Origin: Candidatus Avipropionibacterium avicola
GTDB taxonomy: Bacteria > Actinomycetota > Actinomycetes > Propionibacteriales > Propionibacteriaceae
Direction of reading: 5' to 3'
Length of the DNA: 8,682 nt
Assembly (NCBI GenBank): GCA_018715445.1
Contig: DVLP01000225.1
Location: forward strand, 1-8,682
Shown: piece after piece, positions 1,960 through 8,682 of the stretch
How positions within the stretch are numbered: the stretch's first letter is position 1
Layout of the letters: the number at the start of each line of letters is the position of its first letter
Program-made: the position numbers and the translations under genes
Notes under the pieces: generated by a model
What the model saw: only the letters and a program-made list of their open reading frames with translations
The model's database searches: none
Told to the model about the DNA's origin: nothing

Positions 1960-2520
1960 ATGGACATCGCCGACCCTGCCGTTGCTGACCACGTCGTGCT
2001 GCTGGACGGTCGCGGTCACCAGATCGGGGTGGCCGACCGCCGGACGGTCCATTCCACCGCCACGCCCCGCCATCTGGCCTTCTCCTGCTGGCTGGTCGCC
2101 GCCGACGGGCGGGTGTTGATCACCCGGCGCGCGCTCGGCAAGCGCACCTGGCCCGGCGTGTGGACCAACTCCTGTTGTGGCCACCCCCGACCCGATGAGC
2201 AGCTGGACCATGCCGTACGTCGTCGGGTGCACGAGGAACTGGGCGTGGAGCTTGACGAGGTGGTCTGTGCCCTCCCCGACTTCTCCTATCGAGCCGTCGA
2301 TCGCAGCGGCTTGGTGGAGAACGAGCTGTGTCCGATGTTCCACGCCACGGCGGTCGACGGCGAGCTCTCCCCCGACCCACACGAAGTGGTCGACTGGACC
2401 TGGGAGCAGCCCGAGCGCCTCCGACAGGCGATGACGCATGCCCCGTACGCCTTCAGCCCGTGGGCACGACAGCAACTCCCGCTGCTCGGTGACCTGTCGT
2501 CTCCCCTGGGGGTGGGCTGA
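1960..2520 (+). CDS. idi: Isopentenyl-diphosphate delta-isomerase, type 1
   Basis: A 186-residue cytosolic Nudix-fold enzyme (E. coli Idi is 182) that interconverts IPP and DMAPP, supplying the allylic primer for CrtE. Conserved elements are H31 and H38 in the RTVHSTATPRHLAF region (metal ligands), WTNSCCGHP (68-76) with C73 as the catalytic cysteine and H75 as a metal ligand, the Nudix-like AVRRRVHEELG (85-95), and ENE at 120-122, which holds the catalytic and metal-binding glutamates. All key residues are present, so it should be active. No Shine-Dalgarno sequence is visible before ATG 1960 (the preceding bases are pyrimidine-rich), so the mRNA may be leaderless, with initiation near the ATG just downstream of the CTAG palindrome. 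The stop TGA overlaps the crtE start by one base, showing translational coupling in an idi-crtE-crtI operon. Confidence 0.96.
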   Translation: MDIADPAVADHVVLLDGRGHQIGVADRRTVHSTATPRHLAFSCWLVAADGRVLITRRALGKRTWPGVWTNSCCGHPRPDEQLDHAVRRRVHEELGVELDEVVCALPDFSYRAVDRSGLVENELCPMFHATAVDGELSPDPHEVVDWTWEQPERLRQAMTHAPYAFSPWARQQLPLLGDLSSPLGVG

Positions 2521-3677
2521 TGGTCGTCACCGACACCGCCGTGATCCGGCCCAGCCAGCCTTCGACGCCCCCGCCCTCGACACCCCAGGCTGCCGGGATC
2601 CGAGCACTCGAGGACCATCTCCGACTCGTGGACGACCTGGTGCAGGCCCGTCTGGCCTCCGTGACGACGATGTGGGAGGAGGCCACCCACGACAGGGAAG
2701 CCCGTCGTGCCGCGGGGGTGCCGTCGATCGACCTGGCGGCGACGATCGACGCGATGGTGAGATCCGGAGGCAAACGGATCCGGCCGACCCTCGCCCTGCT
2801 CGGTCACCGGATCGGCGGCGGCCGGGGCCTGCCGACGGATCTGGTCACCCTGGGGGCGGCGTTGGAGCTGCTCCACACCTTCGCCCTCGTCCAGGACGAC
2901 GTGATGGACCACTCCTCGACCCGTCGTGGTCGACCCACGGCCCACGTGCAGCTCGCCGACCTGCACCGCGAACGCCACGGCGCCGGGGACAGCACCCGTT
3001 GGGGCCACAGCATGGCGATCCTGGCCGGGGACCTCGCCCAGGCCGAGGCGCAGGACCTGATGGCCCGGGTGAGCCCGGTGGTACGGCGACACTGGCGCCT
3101 CATGGTCGTGGAGTTGCTCCACGGGCAGACCCGGGACCTCACCGGTGCGGCCTGGCGGGAGAGTGACCCCGAGCGCGCACTGACGACCGCGAGGCTCAAG
3201 TCAGGTGCGTACACGATCCAACGTCCACTCGAGCTCGGGGCACTGGTGGCCGGAGCAGGTGCCGCCACCCTCGACCCGTTGTCGGAGTACGGCGAACACC
3301 TGGGCATCGCCTTTGCGTTGCGCGACGACGTCCTGGGGGTGTGGGGTGACCCGACGCTCACCGGGAAGCCGGCCGGTGACGACCTGATGGAGGGCAAACC
3401 GACCCTGATCATGGCGCTGGCGACCCAGCGACTCGGCGACCTACCGCTCCTGAAGCGGGTGGGGACGGCGACACTGACGCCCTCGGACGTGCAGCAGTTG
3501 CAACACCTGCTCGTCGAGTGCGGGATCCGCGATGAGATCGAGAACCGCATCGCGAGGCACCTGTCGCGTGGACTCAGCGCGTTGGATCGCTTGCCCAGAA
3601 CGGATGACGACACCGACACCGACCCGGTCGAGGCGTTGACCACCCTTGCCGGGCGCGTCGCCCATCGCGACTGCTGA
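2520..3677 (+). CDS. crtE: Polyprenyl diphosphate synthase, GGPP synthase type
   Basis: A 385-residue trans-isoprenyl diphosphate synthase that condenses IPP with allylic diphosphates, most likely to geranylgeranyl diphosphate (C20) for carotenoids. Visible are SGGKRIRP (82-89) for IPP binding, the first aspartate-rich motif DDVMD (126-130), GQTRDL (202-207), KSGAYT (228-233), the second Asp-rich motif DDVLGVWGD (269-277) and GDDLMEGKPTL (286-296). All Mg-binding aspartates are intact. Residue F121, five before the first Asp of DDxxD, is aromatic and there is no two-residue insertion in that motif, so the exact chain length (C15 against C20) is open. Residues 1-25 are a Pro/Ser/Thr-rich extension. 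The ATG at 2520 shares one base with the idi stop (TGATG) and has a G-rich stretch upstream. The name crtE rests on the idi/crtI context. Confidence 0.9.
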   Translation: MVVTDTAVIRPSQPSTPPPSTPQAAGIRALEDHLRLVDDLVQARLASVTTMWEEATHDREARRAAGVPSIDLAATIDAMVRSGGKRIRPTLALLGHRIGGGRGLPTDLVTLGAALELLHTFALVQDDVMDHSSTRRGRPTAHVQLADLHRERHGAGDSTRWGHSMAILAGDLAQAEAQDLMARVSPVVRRHWRLMVVELLHGQTRDLTGAAWRESDPERALTTARLKSGAYTIQRPLELGALVAGAGAATLDPLSEYGEHLGIAFALRDDVLGVWGDPTLTGKPAGDDLMEGKPTLIMALATQRLGDLPLLKRVGTATLTPSDVQQLQHLLVECGIRDEIENRIARHLSRGLSALDRLPRTDDDTDTDPVEALTTLAGRVAHRDC

Positions 3678-3688
3678 GGAGGTGGCTG

Positions 3689-4918
3689 ATGGGATCGGTG
3701 GTGGTCATCGGAGCAGGCCTGTCGGGTCTCGCTGCGGCATGTCATCTTCGCGGCGCAGGCCACGAGGTGACCGTCGTCGAACGCAGCAACGCGGTCGGTG
3801 GACTCGCGGGGCGCCACGTCCAGGACGGCTTCACCTTCGACACCGGTCCCACGGTGCTCACCATGCCCGAGCTGGTCGACGACACCCTGCGCGCGGTCGG
3901 ATCGAGCCTGGCGCAGCGGCTCCGACTGACACCACTCGATCCGGTCTATCGCGGTCATTTCACCGACGGCACCACGATCGACGTCCACGCCGACCTCGCC
4001 GCGATGACCGCCGAGGTGACCCGGGCCTGCGGCGAGCGCGAGGCGGCCCGCTACCGGGACCACGCCGACTGGCTGGAATCACTGTTCACCTTGGAGTTCA
4101 GCCGGTTCATCGATGTGGACTACAGCAGCCCGTGGGACCTGCTCCGGTCTCCGGCGGCCTTGGCCCGGCTGGCCGCGATGGGAGGCTTCGACCGTCTTGC
4201 CCGCGTGGTCGGTCGGCGCTTCGACGATCCCCGACTGCAGCGCCTGCTGACCTTCCAGGCCCTGTACGTCGGCGTGTCACCGCAGCAGGCGCTGGCGCTC
4301 TATGCGGTGGTGACCTATCTGGACTCGGTCGCCGGGGTCCACCACCCCGCCGGCGGCATCCACGAGGTGCCGCGCGCCATGGCCGCGGCCTTCACCGCAG
4401 CGGGCGGGACGATCCGGCTCGACACCGCCGTGACCGGCCTGCTGGGCGTCGCCGCCGGCCGGGTCAACGGCGTCCGGATCGGGGACGGACCGAGCGTCGA
4501 ACGCCTCCGGGCCGATGCCGTGGTCTGCAGCGCGGACCTCCCCACGGTGTGGCGGAGCTGGCTCGCGGGACGGCGGATGCCGCGTGCGGTCCGGGCCGGC
4601 CGGCACGCCCCCTCTGCCCTGGTGTGGCATGTGGGCGTCAACGGCCGTCCCGGGCCCACGGTCCGACACCACAACGTGCACTTCGGCGATCAGTGGGACG
4701 AATCCTTCGACGACCTGCTGGACAGCGGTCGACCGATGCGGGACCCGTCACGCCTGGTGACCGTGCCGAGCATCAGCGATCCTTCGATCGCCCCGGACGG
4801 CTGCAGCACGCTGTACGTCCTCGAGCCGGTGCCCAACCTGGCCGGAGACATCGACTGGAGCAGCGAGCAGGATGCACTCCGGGACCGACTGCAGCGTTTC
4901 CTCGGCGACGCCGGGTAT
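3689..4918 (+). pseudogene. crtI: Phytoene desaturase, C-terminally truncated
   Basis: An FAD-dependent CrtI-type desaturase, which would introduce double bonds into phytoene at the membrane. The first 410 residues look normal: dinucleotide-binding GAGLSGLAA (8-16) with E31 at the end of beta-2, then GGLAGRHVQDGF and FDTGPTVLTMP (50-60), and the desaturase block AGGIHEVPRAMAAAF at about 221-235. Start ATG 3689 has a strong AGGAGG at 3677-3682, overlapping the crtE stop. Homology stops at LGDAGY (Y410, about 4918). Family members run near 500 residues and end with an FAD-binding GSGTxPGxGxPM-like segment; this last 90-100 residues is absent in every frame. The frame has no stop at the break and continues to 5503 as a 194-residue low-complexity Ser/Thr/Arg-rich tail, antisense to the chelatase D gene. 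The product would be about 604 residues and almost certainly inactive. A sequencing frameshift alone cannot explain it, since the missing segment is not in another frame. Confidence 0.85.
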
Positions 4919-5028
4919 TCGGCGAGCTCGCGGCCTCCCTGTCACCGGACGAGGCAAAGGTCGTGCTCGACTTCCTGCGCCGCGGGCAGCAGATCCTGCA
5001 GGACTACGCCGACAACGCGGACGAGTAG
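4915..5028 (+). pseudogene. C-terminal remnant of a MarR-family regulator
   Basis: Read from base 4915 in the frame of stop TAG 5026-5028, the DNA gives 37 residues beginning VFGELAASLSPDEAKVVL, followed by DFLRRGQQILQDYADNADE. The pattern 'F..LA..LSPDE...VL.FLRR.Q.IL' resembles the C-terminal dimerisation helices of MarR-type regulators. It has no start codon, ribosome binding site or DNA-binding winged helix, because the DNA immediately upstream is crtI in a different frame. It is therefore read as the tail of a gene whose 5' part was lost at the same junction that truncates crtI. MarR-type regulators are known beside actinobacterial carotenoid genes. The short length limits certainty; some other helical protein tail is possible. 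Confidence 0.6.
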
Positions 5029-5060
5029 CACGACACCGACTCCCCACTCGCCTGCTGCGC

Positions 5061-5078
5061 CCACTGCGAGGTCAGTGG
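5061..5078. terminator. Hairpin between converging genes
   Basis: A perfect 6-bp stem, CCACTG (5061-5066) and CAGTGG (5073-5078), encloses a 6-base loop. It sits in the 57-bp gap between the marR remnant stop (5028) and the chelatase D stop (5086), which converge. It could terminate from either side. There is no U-tract, the stem is short, and function is inferred from position. Confidence 0.4.
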
Positions 5079-5085
5079 TCGACGG

Positions 5086-6681
5086 TCACCGCGCGGCCTG
5101 CAACGCCTCCCGGAGCCACCCGGCCGGGTCCGCGGTCCCGGTACGGCTGACTCCGTGGACCACCCGTGATCCGGCACTGTGCTGCAGCAGGCCAGCCACC
5201 CGTCCGGCGTCGGCCCGCGCCCGCTGCCGGGGATCCTGTGACGCCGCAGCGGCGTCGTCGTCGCTCGACAACCCGATGTTGGCCCGACCGTCGGTCAGCA
5301 CGACCACTTCGACCGCGGCCGGGTCCCACGATCGGGCCAGCTCGTCAGCCATCAACAGCCCGGAGGCCAACGGCGTACCACCGCCATGGGGCAGTCGTCG
5401 TAACGACGCCCGCACCCGCGCCAAGGACTTGGTCGGTGCCAGTCCGAGCTGGGCACGACGACCGCGGACCAGCACCACGGCGACCCGGTCGCGACGGCGA
5501 TAGGCCTGGTCCAGCAACCCCAACGCGATCGCCTTGGCCTGCCGCAGGGCATCGCGGCCCATCGAGCCGGAGGCATCCACCACGATCACGGTCAGTCGAC
5601 CACTGCGGCGACGGCGGTGGGCCCAGCGCAGGTCCTCGGCCCGTGCCGCCACCGAGCCGCCGGCAGCCACCGACCGGGCAGCGACACGTTGCAGGGTGGC
5701 GCCCAGCGCGAAGCCGGTGTCGGGCCGCGGGCTGCTGACCACCCTCCCCGTCCGACCACCCACCCGGGTCGCCGTGATCGGCCCACCGCGACCGGTCGGA
5801 GCCGCACCCGAGCGATGCCGCCCTCGTCCCATGCCCACACCGGCGGTCGGTACGGGAAGGGGTTCGGGTTCGGCAGTCTCGGACTCCGCTGGATCCTCGG
5901 CCATGGACCCATCGGTGCTGGGTTCTTCGCCACTGGGTTCCCCGCTGCCGTGGGGATCCGGGTCGTCCTCGGGTGGCGAGTCCTCGGCCTCCCGGTCGGG
6001 ACGGTCGGGCTGCTGCTCGTCCTCAGCGCGGGACTGCTCCGGTCGATCGCCCGGCTCCTCGGACTGCTCGGTCGACGGCGGTGGCGGCTGGTCGATCCCG
6101 GAACGGGGAGTGAACACGAACCGGTCCAGCAGCCGCAGCGCACCGGCTCGTTCGATCCCCTGCTCGGCCAGCACTCGCGCGATCCGGGTGGCACCGATCT
6201 CGACCGGGTGGCACCGCAGGCCGTGGCCGAAGGCGCGCTGCACCACCTCGACGCTGGCCAACGGATCGACTGGCCCGGAAGCCGTGGGGTGGTCCGGCAG
6301 GAGTGGGTCCTGCCAGCGCAGCAACCCGTCCCGGCTGTGGGCCAGGTCGACCACCAGGGCACATCGGTCCAGCACCGCCTCGGGCACCTCGTCCACGGAC
6401 TCCGCGCTCGCCAGCGGGCAGGCCGTCCCGGCCAGAGCACTGGTCTGGAGTGGATCGAGCAGATCGGCGGCCACGCACAGCGTGATCGCCTCCCCGTCGT
6501 CACCGGCAGACCACTGACCGGGGTCGGCACCCACGCTGATCCGGCGCACCGGCCGATCGGCGGCAGCGACCAATTCGGTCACCGCACGCTCCCGCAACGC
6601 CGCGTCACCGACCAGCAGGATGCCGGCCTCGGGCGCGACACACCACGCCCGGACCACCTCGGCGAAGCCGTCGGGGGTCAC
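5086..6681 (-). CDS. chlD: Chelatase subunit D-like protein with VWA/MIDAS domain
   Basis: A 531-residue ChlD/BchD-type subunit of an ATP-dependent metal chelatase; D subunits form a ring complex with the AAA+ I subunit and couple ATP hydrolysis to the large metal-inserting subunit. Residues 1-195 form an I-like AAA+-derived domain without a Walker A motif, usual for D subunits. Residues about 198-280 are a very acidic, Pro/Glu/Ser-rich linker, the standard spacer in this family. The C-terminal von Willebrand A domain has an intact MIDAS: DASGSM (369-374), GGTPLASG (434-441, T436) and LTDGRANIG (462-470, D464), preceded by AEDLRW. The start is GTG 6681, inside the ATPase stop (GTGA, 4-bp overlap); the open frame extends upstream to 7422, but that part lies over the ATPase gene and is a shadow. 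Metal specificity is set by the large subunit, so cobalt (cobalamin) is preferred over magnesium only by context. Confidence 0.88.
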
Positions 6682-7598
6682 AACACCTTCCCCACCAGCT
6701 CGGTGATCCTCCGGTCGATCGTGTGCGGGGCGTCGAAGGCCTCGCGGGGGACGCGATGCCGCAGCACCGGGCCGGCACACTGCTGCAGGTGCTCGGTCGT
6801 CACCCGTGGCGCCCCCTCGAGCGCGGCGGCAGCACGGGCCGCCATCGTGAGCACCAACTCCCCCCGGTGCCCGATCGCCCCTGCCGCCACACAGATCCTG
6901 ACCACGGTGCGCATCACGGCTTCGTCGACCACGACCCCGGGCAACCTGTTCCGGGCTGCCCGAAGGGTCTCGGCCAGCGCCGTCTGCTCCTCGGCCCACC
7001 GGTCGGCGAAGGCGTACGGATCGTCCTCGTAGGCCAGTCGGCGGTCGATCACCTCGGCCCGCAGGTGTGGATCGGTCAGCGTCGTGACATGGACCGCCAA
7101 CCCGAAGCGGTCCTCCAACTGCGGTCGCAGCTCGCCCTCCTCCGGGTTGCCCGAGCCGACCAGCACGAACCGGGCCGGATGGCTGTGGCTGATCCCGTCC
7201 CGTTCGACCAGGTTCACCCCGCTGGCGGCGACGTCCAACAACACGTCGACCAGGAAGTCGTCCAGCAGGTTGATCTCGTCCACGTACAGCACGCCCTGAT
7301 CCGCCTCGGCCAGCAGGCCCGGGTGGAAGCGCCGCTCGCCGGCGACCAGGGCGGCCTCCAGGTCGAGCGAGCCGATGACCCGGTCCTCGGTCGCCCCCAG
7401 CGGGAGCGTCACGACCGGACATTCCAACCCTGCCAAGGAAAACAGGTCGGCCAGGGCGCGCACGGTGGTGGTCTTGCCGGTGCCGCGGTCACCCAGGGCC
7501 AGCACCCCGGCGATCCTGCGGTCGACCGCACACCACAACAGGGCTTGGCGGAACTCGTCCTGCCCACAGATCGCGGTGAACGGGAACGCTGGCTTCAT
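6678..7598 (-). CDS. chlI: Chelatase AAA+ ATPase subunit (BchI/ChlI family)
   Basis: A 306-residue AAA+ ATPase that powers insertion of a metal into a tetrapyrrole. Seen are Walker [10 protein letters not shown] (36-44), the ChlI-specific [14 protein letters not shown] (68-81), Walker [10 protein letters not shown] (104-112), and the sensor/arginine-finger region [20 protein letters not shown] (147-166). The C-terminal helical lid (220-305) includes HRGEL at 244-248. It is slightly shorter than plant and cyanobacterial ChlI (about 350), typical of the actinobacterial form. The start ATG 7598 overlaps the upstream cobN stop (ATGA) and has GGAAGGAG at 7610-7603, whereas a longer open frame to 7835 runs over cobN and is rejected. 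Its own stop overlaps the D-subunit GTG. The strict 4-bp chaining argues that the three subunits are made together as one complex. Confidence 0.93.
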
Positions 7599-8682
7599 GC
7601 GACTCCTTCCAGATGGTCGTCGAGGTCGTCGCGCACCTCGTCGAGACGGTCCGACTCGGATGCGTCGGGTTGCCAGAGCTCGCGGTCGCGGGCTTCGGCG
7701 AGGGTGTCGGCCATGGCGCGAACCGCGGCCGGGTTCAACGCCACCATCCGGTCGCGCAGCTCGGAGTCGAACAGGAAGGTCTGCGCCGCAGCGGAGAAGA
7801 TCCAACCGTCGACCGCGCCGGTGGTGGCCGACCACCCGTAGGTGTTCGACAGCCGTGAGGCCACCTCATGGACGCCCTGGAAACCGTGGCTGAGCATGGC
7901 TTCGTACCACTTCGGGTTCAGCATGCGGGTCCGCGACTCGAGCCGGATGGCCTCGTCGAGGTCGCGTACCTTGGCACGGGCAGAGTAGTTGTCGGCGGTC
8001 AGCACCCTCGGTCGGCGACCGCCCGAGGCGGCGGCGACCGCAGCGGTCATGCCACCCAGGTGGTCGAGGTAGTCGTCGTTGTCGGCCAGGGACTGCTCGG
8101 CACCGTCGATGTTCTGGAAGCTCACCTCGACCCGGGCCATCGCAGCTCGCAACAGTCGTACGGCTTCGCGTCCCTGCATGGCTCCGTAGGCATGACCCTG
8201 TCGCCGCAGGTAGATCTCGCCCAGGTCGGTGTCGCTGTCCCAGGCCGAGGCCTCCACGGTGTGGCTGACGCCGGTGCCGTAGCGGCCCTGCAGTGAGGAG
8301 AACACCCGGGTGGCGGCCTCGTCGACCGAGATCCCCAGCTCGGTGGCGGTCTCACGGCAGTGCTTGCGCAGGTAGTTGTCCTCGTCGGACTCGTCGAGCG
8401 CGGCCACCAGGTGCACGGCCCGATCGAGCAGGTCGAGGGTGGCGGGGAACATGTCACGGAACACCCCGGAGGTGGCGATCACCACATCGATCCGGGGTCG
8501 TCCCAGCTCGGACAGCGGGATCACCCGCAGCTGGTTCACCTCACCGGTGCGGTCCGGGTACGGCTCGACCCCGAGCATCGCGAACGCCTGGGCCGGCGCC
8601 TCTCCCAGGGTCTTGATGGTGTCGATGCCCCACACCACCAGCGAGACCGTCTCCGGCCATCCGTCCCCCGAGCCCGTCGAGG
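7595..8682 (-). CDS. cobN: CobN/ChlH-type chelatase large subunit, C-terminal part (partial)
   Basis: About 361 C-terminal residues of a protein normally 1,100-1,400 long; the frame is open through the right edge, so the real start is outside the window. The large subunit binds the tetrapyrrole and inserts the metal. Diagnostic blocks are [13 protein letters not shown] near the edge, [62 protein letters not shown] and [16 protein letters not shown]. The DDY...GGM block is closer to CobN (hydrogenobyrinic acid a,c-diamide cobaltochelatase), while NPKWYEAML and GWSATTG also occur in magnesium chelatase H, so family placement is sure but the metal is not. It is the first of the three minus-strand chelatase genes in view, overlapping the ATPase gene by 4 bp. 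Any promoter or cobalamin riboswitch would be upstream, off the window. Confidence 0.88.
7603..7610 (-). promoter_or_regulatory. Strong ribosome binding site for the chelatase ATPase
   Basis: On the minus strand the sequence GGAAGGAG lies 4 bases before ATG 7598 and inside the end of cobN. It decides the ATPase start in favour of the 306-residue form over longer in-frame alternatives, and gives the ATPase independent initiation even though its ATG overlaps the cobN stop. Confidence 0.75.

Follow-up and report, generated by a model that had tools for sequence, protein, structure and literature searches.

The window, as we call the whole stretch of DNA analysed here, coincides with one whole contig, C162 (8682 bases). 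The assembly to which it belongs (G000) has 469 contigs totalling 3.25 Mb and is 91% complete and 3.8% contaminated. Along the contig lie the end of an ectoine hydroxylase gene, genes for a Gfo/Idh-type oxidoreductase and a DUF3995 protein, idi, crtE, a remnant of crtI and a MarR-like tail, past which bchD-, bchI- and bchH-like chelatase genes follow on the opposite strand. The idi-like gene (1960..2520, plus strand) is open and encodes a NUDIX protein, isopentenyl-diphosphate isomerase (PF00293, E-value 2e-21), and the order idi-crtE-crtI to which it belongs recurs in many relatives. Also open is the crtE-like gene for a polyprenyl diphosphate synthase (2520..3677, plus strand), which is matched by NCBIfam polyprenyl synthase models and has crtE as its counterpart at the equivalent place in relatives. 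The right border of the scar region is formed by the convergent gene for a magnesium-chelatase-like D subunit (5086..6681, minus strand, start approximate), with a VWA domain and matches to TIGR02031 and TIGR02442.

The crtI remnant

The remnant of crtI (3689..4918, plus strand) encodes residues 1–410 of a CrtI-type phytoene desaturase, with neither a stop nor a frameshift in its 410 codons. It scores 371 bits against TIGR02734 (cut-off 238; E-value 8.5e-111) and is 83% and 81% identical to its relatives P0002 and P0003. Its residues align throughout with this family, of which 4dgk is a solved relative, including the N-terminal FAD-binding region, and the gene order idi-crtE-crtI is the same. 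Unlike the family, it lacks the C-terminal ~86 residues with the PGVGVP-type motif: the match covers model positions 1–399 of 504, whereas the nearest intact relatives (P0002–P0004, full-length proteins of 496–497 residues) reach positions 491–494.

A sequence-only reading of the window had placed the end of clean CrtI homology at Y410 (codon 4916–4918), and this is indeed the last residue with such homology. Our homologue set comprised the best 120 of 1621 protein matches, or 119 sequences (P0002–P0120) after removal of the window's own entry; those carrying names include Microlunatus and Propionibacteriaceae records, close to which the genome probably belongs. All 119 (best of 1621) align at residue 410 and continue past it, by a median of 86 residues (range 55–113, the value of 55 belonging to P0066, annotated as partial). 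The C-terminal motif G(A/S)xxxPGVGVP is present in 118 of these 119 best matches and was not found after residue 400 of the window's read-through frame (see below). In an alignment of CrtI from 20 relatives, which left out L065 and L079, all sequences likewise extend past residue 410, L068 being cut further on by the end of its contig. The earlier claim that the C-terminus is missing from all frames was borne out as well: tblastn searches with three relatives' versions of the lost part gave nothing below E-value 0.08 in the window, and in the rest of the assembly no match was found at E-value 0.001. A search for CrtI on plasmids gave 203 records, each less than 60% identical.

The join and the MarR-like tail

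The join maps to 4916..4924: homology to CrtI runs as far as 4918, the crtI genes of relatives, when matched as DNA to 4800–5200, reach 4924 at most, and the MarR profile match described below starts at 4924. Contrary to the sequence-only reading, crtI does not stop here; its own frame stays open to 5503, giving a read-through frame of 604 codons (3689..5503, plus strand), composed of 410 native CrtI residues and 194 out-of-frame residues. The codon-position GC content in the CrtI frame is 0.75/0.52/0.86 before the join and 0.56/0.82/0.78 after it, i.e. the signature is lost, and in the MarR frame (4915–5028) it is 0.78/0.32/0.92, like that of a real gene of this assembly. The putative fusion would consist of the FAD-binding body of CrtI and an arginine- and serine-rich extension of 194 residues, which crosses marR out of frame and runs antisense to bchD. 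The same frame is present in the protein record P0001 (604 residues), which runs through the same join, is identical to the window's frame at 602 of 604 positions and belongs to a cluster of 4 member sequences. We find it hardly credible that the 604-residue product is a new maintained protein, kept in more than one strain for a new activity.

The sequence-only reading had hesitated between natural decay and an assembly join. The former is supported by our results. The latter, an assembly or binning artefact in which two stretches of unrelated DNA meet at 4918–4924, is made possible by the fragmentation of the assembly into 469 contigs, but we regard it as very unlikely, because P0001, with its two residue differences, shares the join while being encoded on a contig of 6617 rather than 8682 bases. 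P0001 is listed without a source, as are proteins of the window itself, and may stem from another assembly of the same source, which leaves the artefact some room; against it, searches of the other contigs did not recover the missing pieces, and the end of the CrtI homology (4918) and the start of the MarR homology (4924) lie next to each other with no k-mer-long overlap, which speaks against a graph-assembler chimera.

We found no direct or inverted repeat in 4800–5120, and no promoter or terminator in 4850–5150 by simple consensus. The hexamer CGGCGA, previously pointed out on either side of the join, does occur at 4903 and 4920 (with its left neighbour seven bases, TCGGCGA). However, 686 of 8482 window positions (8.1%) are flanked by a 6-base repeat when counted in a frame slightly too narrow to include the pair itself, for which the rate expected by chance is therefore somewhat above 8.1%. 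Being near chance level, the repeat has little evidential weight and was dropped as a deletion signature.

From 4915, in a frame other than that of crtI, the DNA encodes 37 codons that end at the TAG at 5028 (4915..5028, plus strand) and that had been read as the C-terminal remnant of a MarR-like regulator. A direct protein search with this tail did not bear that out, as the large protein database returned two candidates, none at E-values up to 1, and Pfam and NCBIfam scans of the 37 residues found no family. Among 57 genomes, the two best non-self matches are both to the C-terminal end of a MarR protein, one in G043 (E-value 0.026) and one on contig C127 of the window's own assembly (E-value 0.047), where the MarR protein ends in a segment resembling the tail; these E-values are per genome and therefore insufficient alone across 57 genomes, and the lower-ranked matches (L057–L064, plus-strand frames) are not MarR-like in appearance. 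Support comes from a MarR profile of 159 positions, built round the G043 protein from the best 120 of 490 MarR homologues. The tail was ranked against 1000 shuffles and 276 C-termini of other predicted frames; among these 1277 queries, itself included, it came first with 17.9 bits, at positions 124–154 of 159 and in exact C-terminal register, compared to 11.0 bits for the best shuffle and 5.7 bits for the best of the other C-termini. Since the protein at the centre of the profile was picked by the tail itself, the 17.9 bits constitute support and not independent proof. In Smith-Waterman alignments with a MarR set the tail scores 64, and 300 shuffles reach at most 50.

The choice of the profile's centre, the silence of Pfam, NCBIfam and the protein search, and a best single match of only 0.026 per genome are what one would expect if the tail resembled MarR by chance and crtI had been truncated by another event, a possibility compatible with the other alternatives considered here. 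We nevertheless judge chance similarity unlikely, given the distance of the profile score from those of the shuffles and of the other C-termini, the exact register and the strong codon signature in the MarR frame. The tail, taken as a MarR remnant, fits the extreme C-terminus of a MarR-family regulator, in the C-terminal helix segment, and is devoid of the winged helix, as had been claimed: Pfam scans of four frames, including the whole open frame 3646–5028 that holds the tail, found no MarR or other winged-helix family. The remnant would therefore not bind DNA. In Corynebacterium, according to PMC5401885, CrtR is located upstream of the crt operon and divergent from it, whereas the MarR-like remnant lies downstream.

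Gene order in relatives and the origin of the scar

We compared 22 crt loci: 20 come from a group of 24 relatives in which CrtI matched strongly, and two from a CrtI pattern search of genome contigs. In 20 of the 22, crtI is followed on its own strand by crtB, at a distance of at most 81 bases in 18 loci and of about 1.3 kb in two (L065 and L066); the remaining two (L068 and L080) run out at contig ends. In the window's 91%-complete assembly no phytoene synthase domain (SQS_PSY, PF00494) was found at E-value 0.001, with a control search detecting the domain in 7 of 14 known genomes. This result fits a deletion, and crtB could also lie in the 9% that the assembly lacks. The lycopene cyclase domain PF18916 was not found in this assembly either, but it was equally not found in the crtB-bearing genome G019, so this result weighs little. 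Of the order crtI-(crtB...)-marR, which the sequence-only reading had proposed to look for in relatives, crtB was thus seen in its place, whereas marR was found downstream of crtB in none of the 22 loci (two of them without downstream DNA). In L069 and L081 a MarR match is found upstream of idi, and none was found beside the chelatase genes of G135, G318 and G526.

We conclude that crtI breaks off at codon 410, with the last 37 codons of a MarR-like gene attached to it in another frame, and that a single natural internal deletion is the most likely cause. The ancestral order would have been idi-crtE-crtI-crtB-(...)-marR, and the deletion, of at least ~1.5 kb as estimated from gene lengths, would have taken the remaining 3' part of crtI and the 5' part of marR, with probably the whole of crtB in between, leaving a product that is presumably dead. 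All the losses are accounted for by one deletion that begins in crtI, spans crtB and ends in a marR further downstream, and they may go back to one event. The crtI/crtB side of this deletion, with the truncation of crtI and the missing crtB, is well supported; as no marR was found after crtB in the 22 loci or beside the three chelatase loci, its right-hand side is what we infer.

That no marR was found downstream of crtB in the 22 loci would also be expected if some other rearrangement had made the join, such as an inversion, a translocation or an exchange that brought in a foreign marR tail, with crtB lost separately or together. The genome G001, of the same genus, points in this direction too: it shares the left flank (DNA identity 92% and 78%), after which different genes come, none of them a crt or chelatase gene, and neither a strong CrtI match nor a phytoene synthase was found in it. 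The crt-chelatase block therefore comes and goes in the genus, and the region is mobile or lossy; for the same reason G001 provides no ancestral state. We consider such a rearrangement improbable, however, because crtI and marR have the same orientation, the missing piece is crtB, the expected neighbour, and no direct or inverted repeat was found around the join. At the matching place in G001 (L151, contig C18), the Gfo/Idh gene is followed, as judged by eye, by a WYL-type regulator-like gene and others that replace the block.

As to the age of the proposed deletion, the undisturbed 410 codons of crtI and the open idi and crtE suggest that the event is likely to be recent. A lost crtB and a truncated crtI behind upstream genes that are still open are features shared with pigment-operon decay by deletion, and the scar, indistinguishable from ordinary gene loss, is likely to be ordinary gene decay.

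Expected phenotype and flanking sequences

With no match for a phytoene synthase in the assembly and a CrtI remnant devoid of its conserved C-terminal part, lycopene synthesis is expected to be abolished twice over, and we predict cells without coloured carotenoids. The locus documents a probable route by which carotenoid synthesis was lost in one bacterial lineage in which idi and crtE are still open; it is a fresh example of operon decay, with a pseudogene of a known kind and no new mechanism.

The magnesium-chelatase-like D, I and H genes span 5086–8680 of the window on the minus strand. The H subunit scores 440–446 bits with BchH models, compared to at most 288 bits with CobN models. Strong chelatase matches are rare, being found in 2 of 198 genomes of the family (E-value 1e-85) and 3 of 394 genomes of the class (E-value 1e-100), the window's own genome counted. 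As judged by eye, the H gene has a siderophore-type ABC permease-like gene in its vicinity in all of G135, G318 and G526, and in G135 and G318 an ATPase-like gene too; crt queries gave no match to the chelatase loci of these three genomes. At the other end of the window, the intergenic segment 278–343 is a loopless palindrome with two 33-base arms that are 85% complementary. It is a REP-like dispersed element, and sequences resembling it recur on 13 or more further contigs of the assembly, several of them matching both strands (40 of 572 candidates scored).
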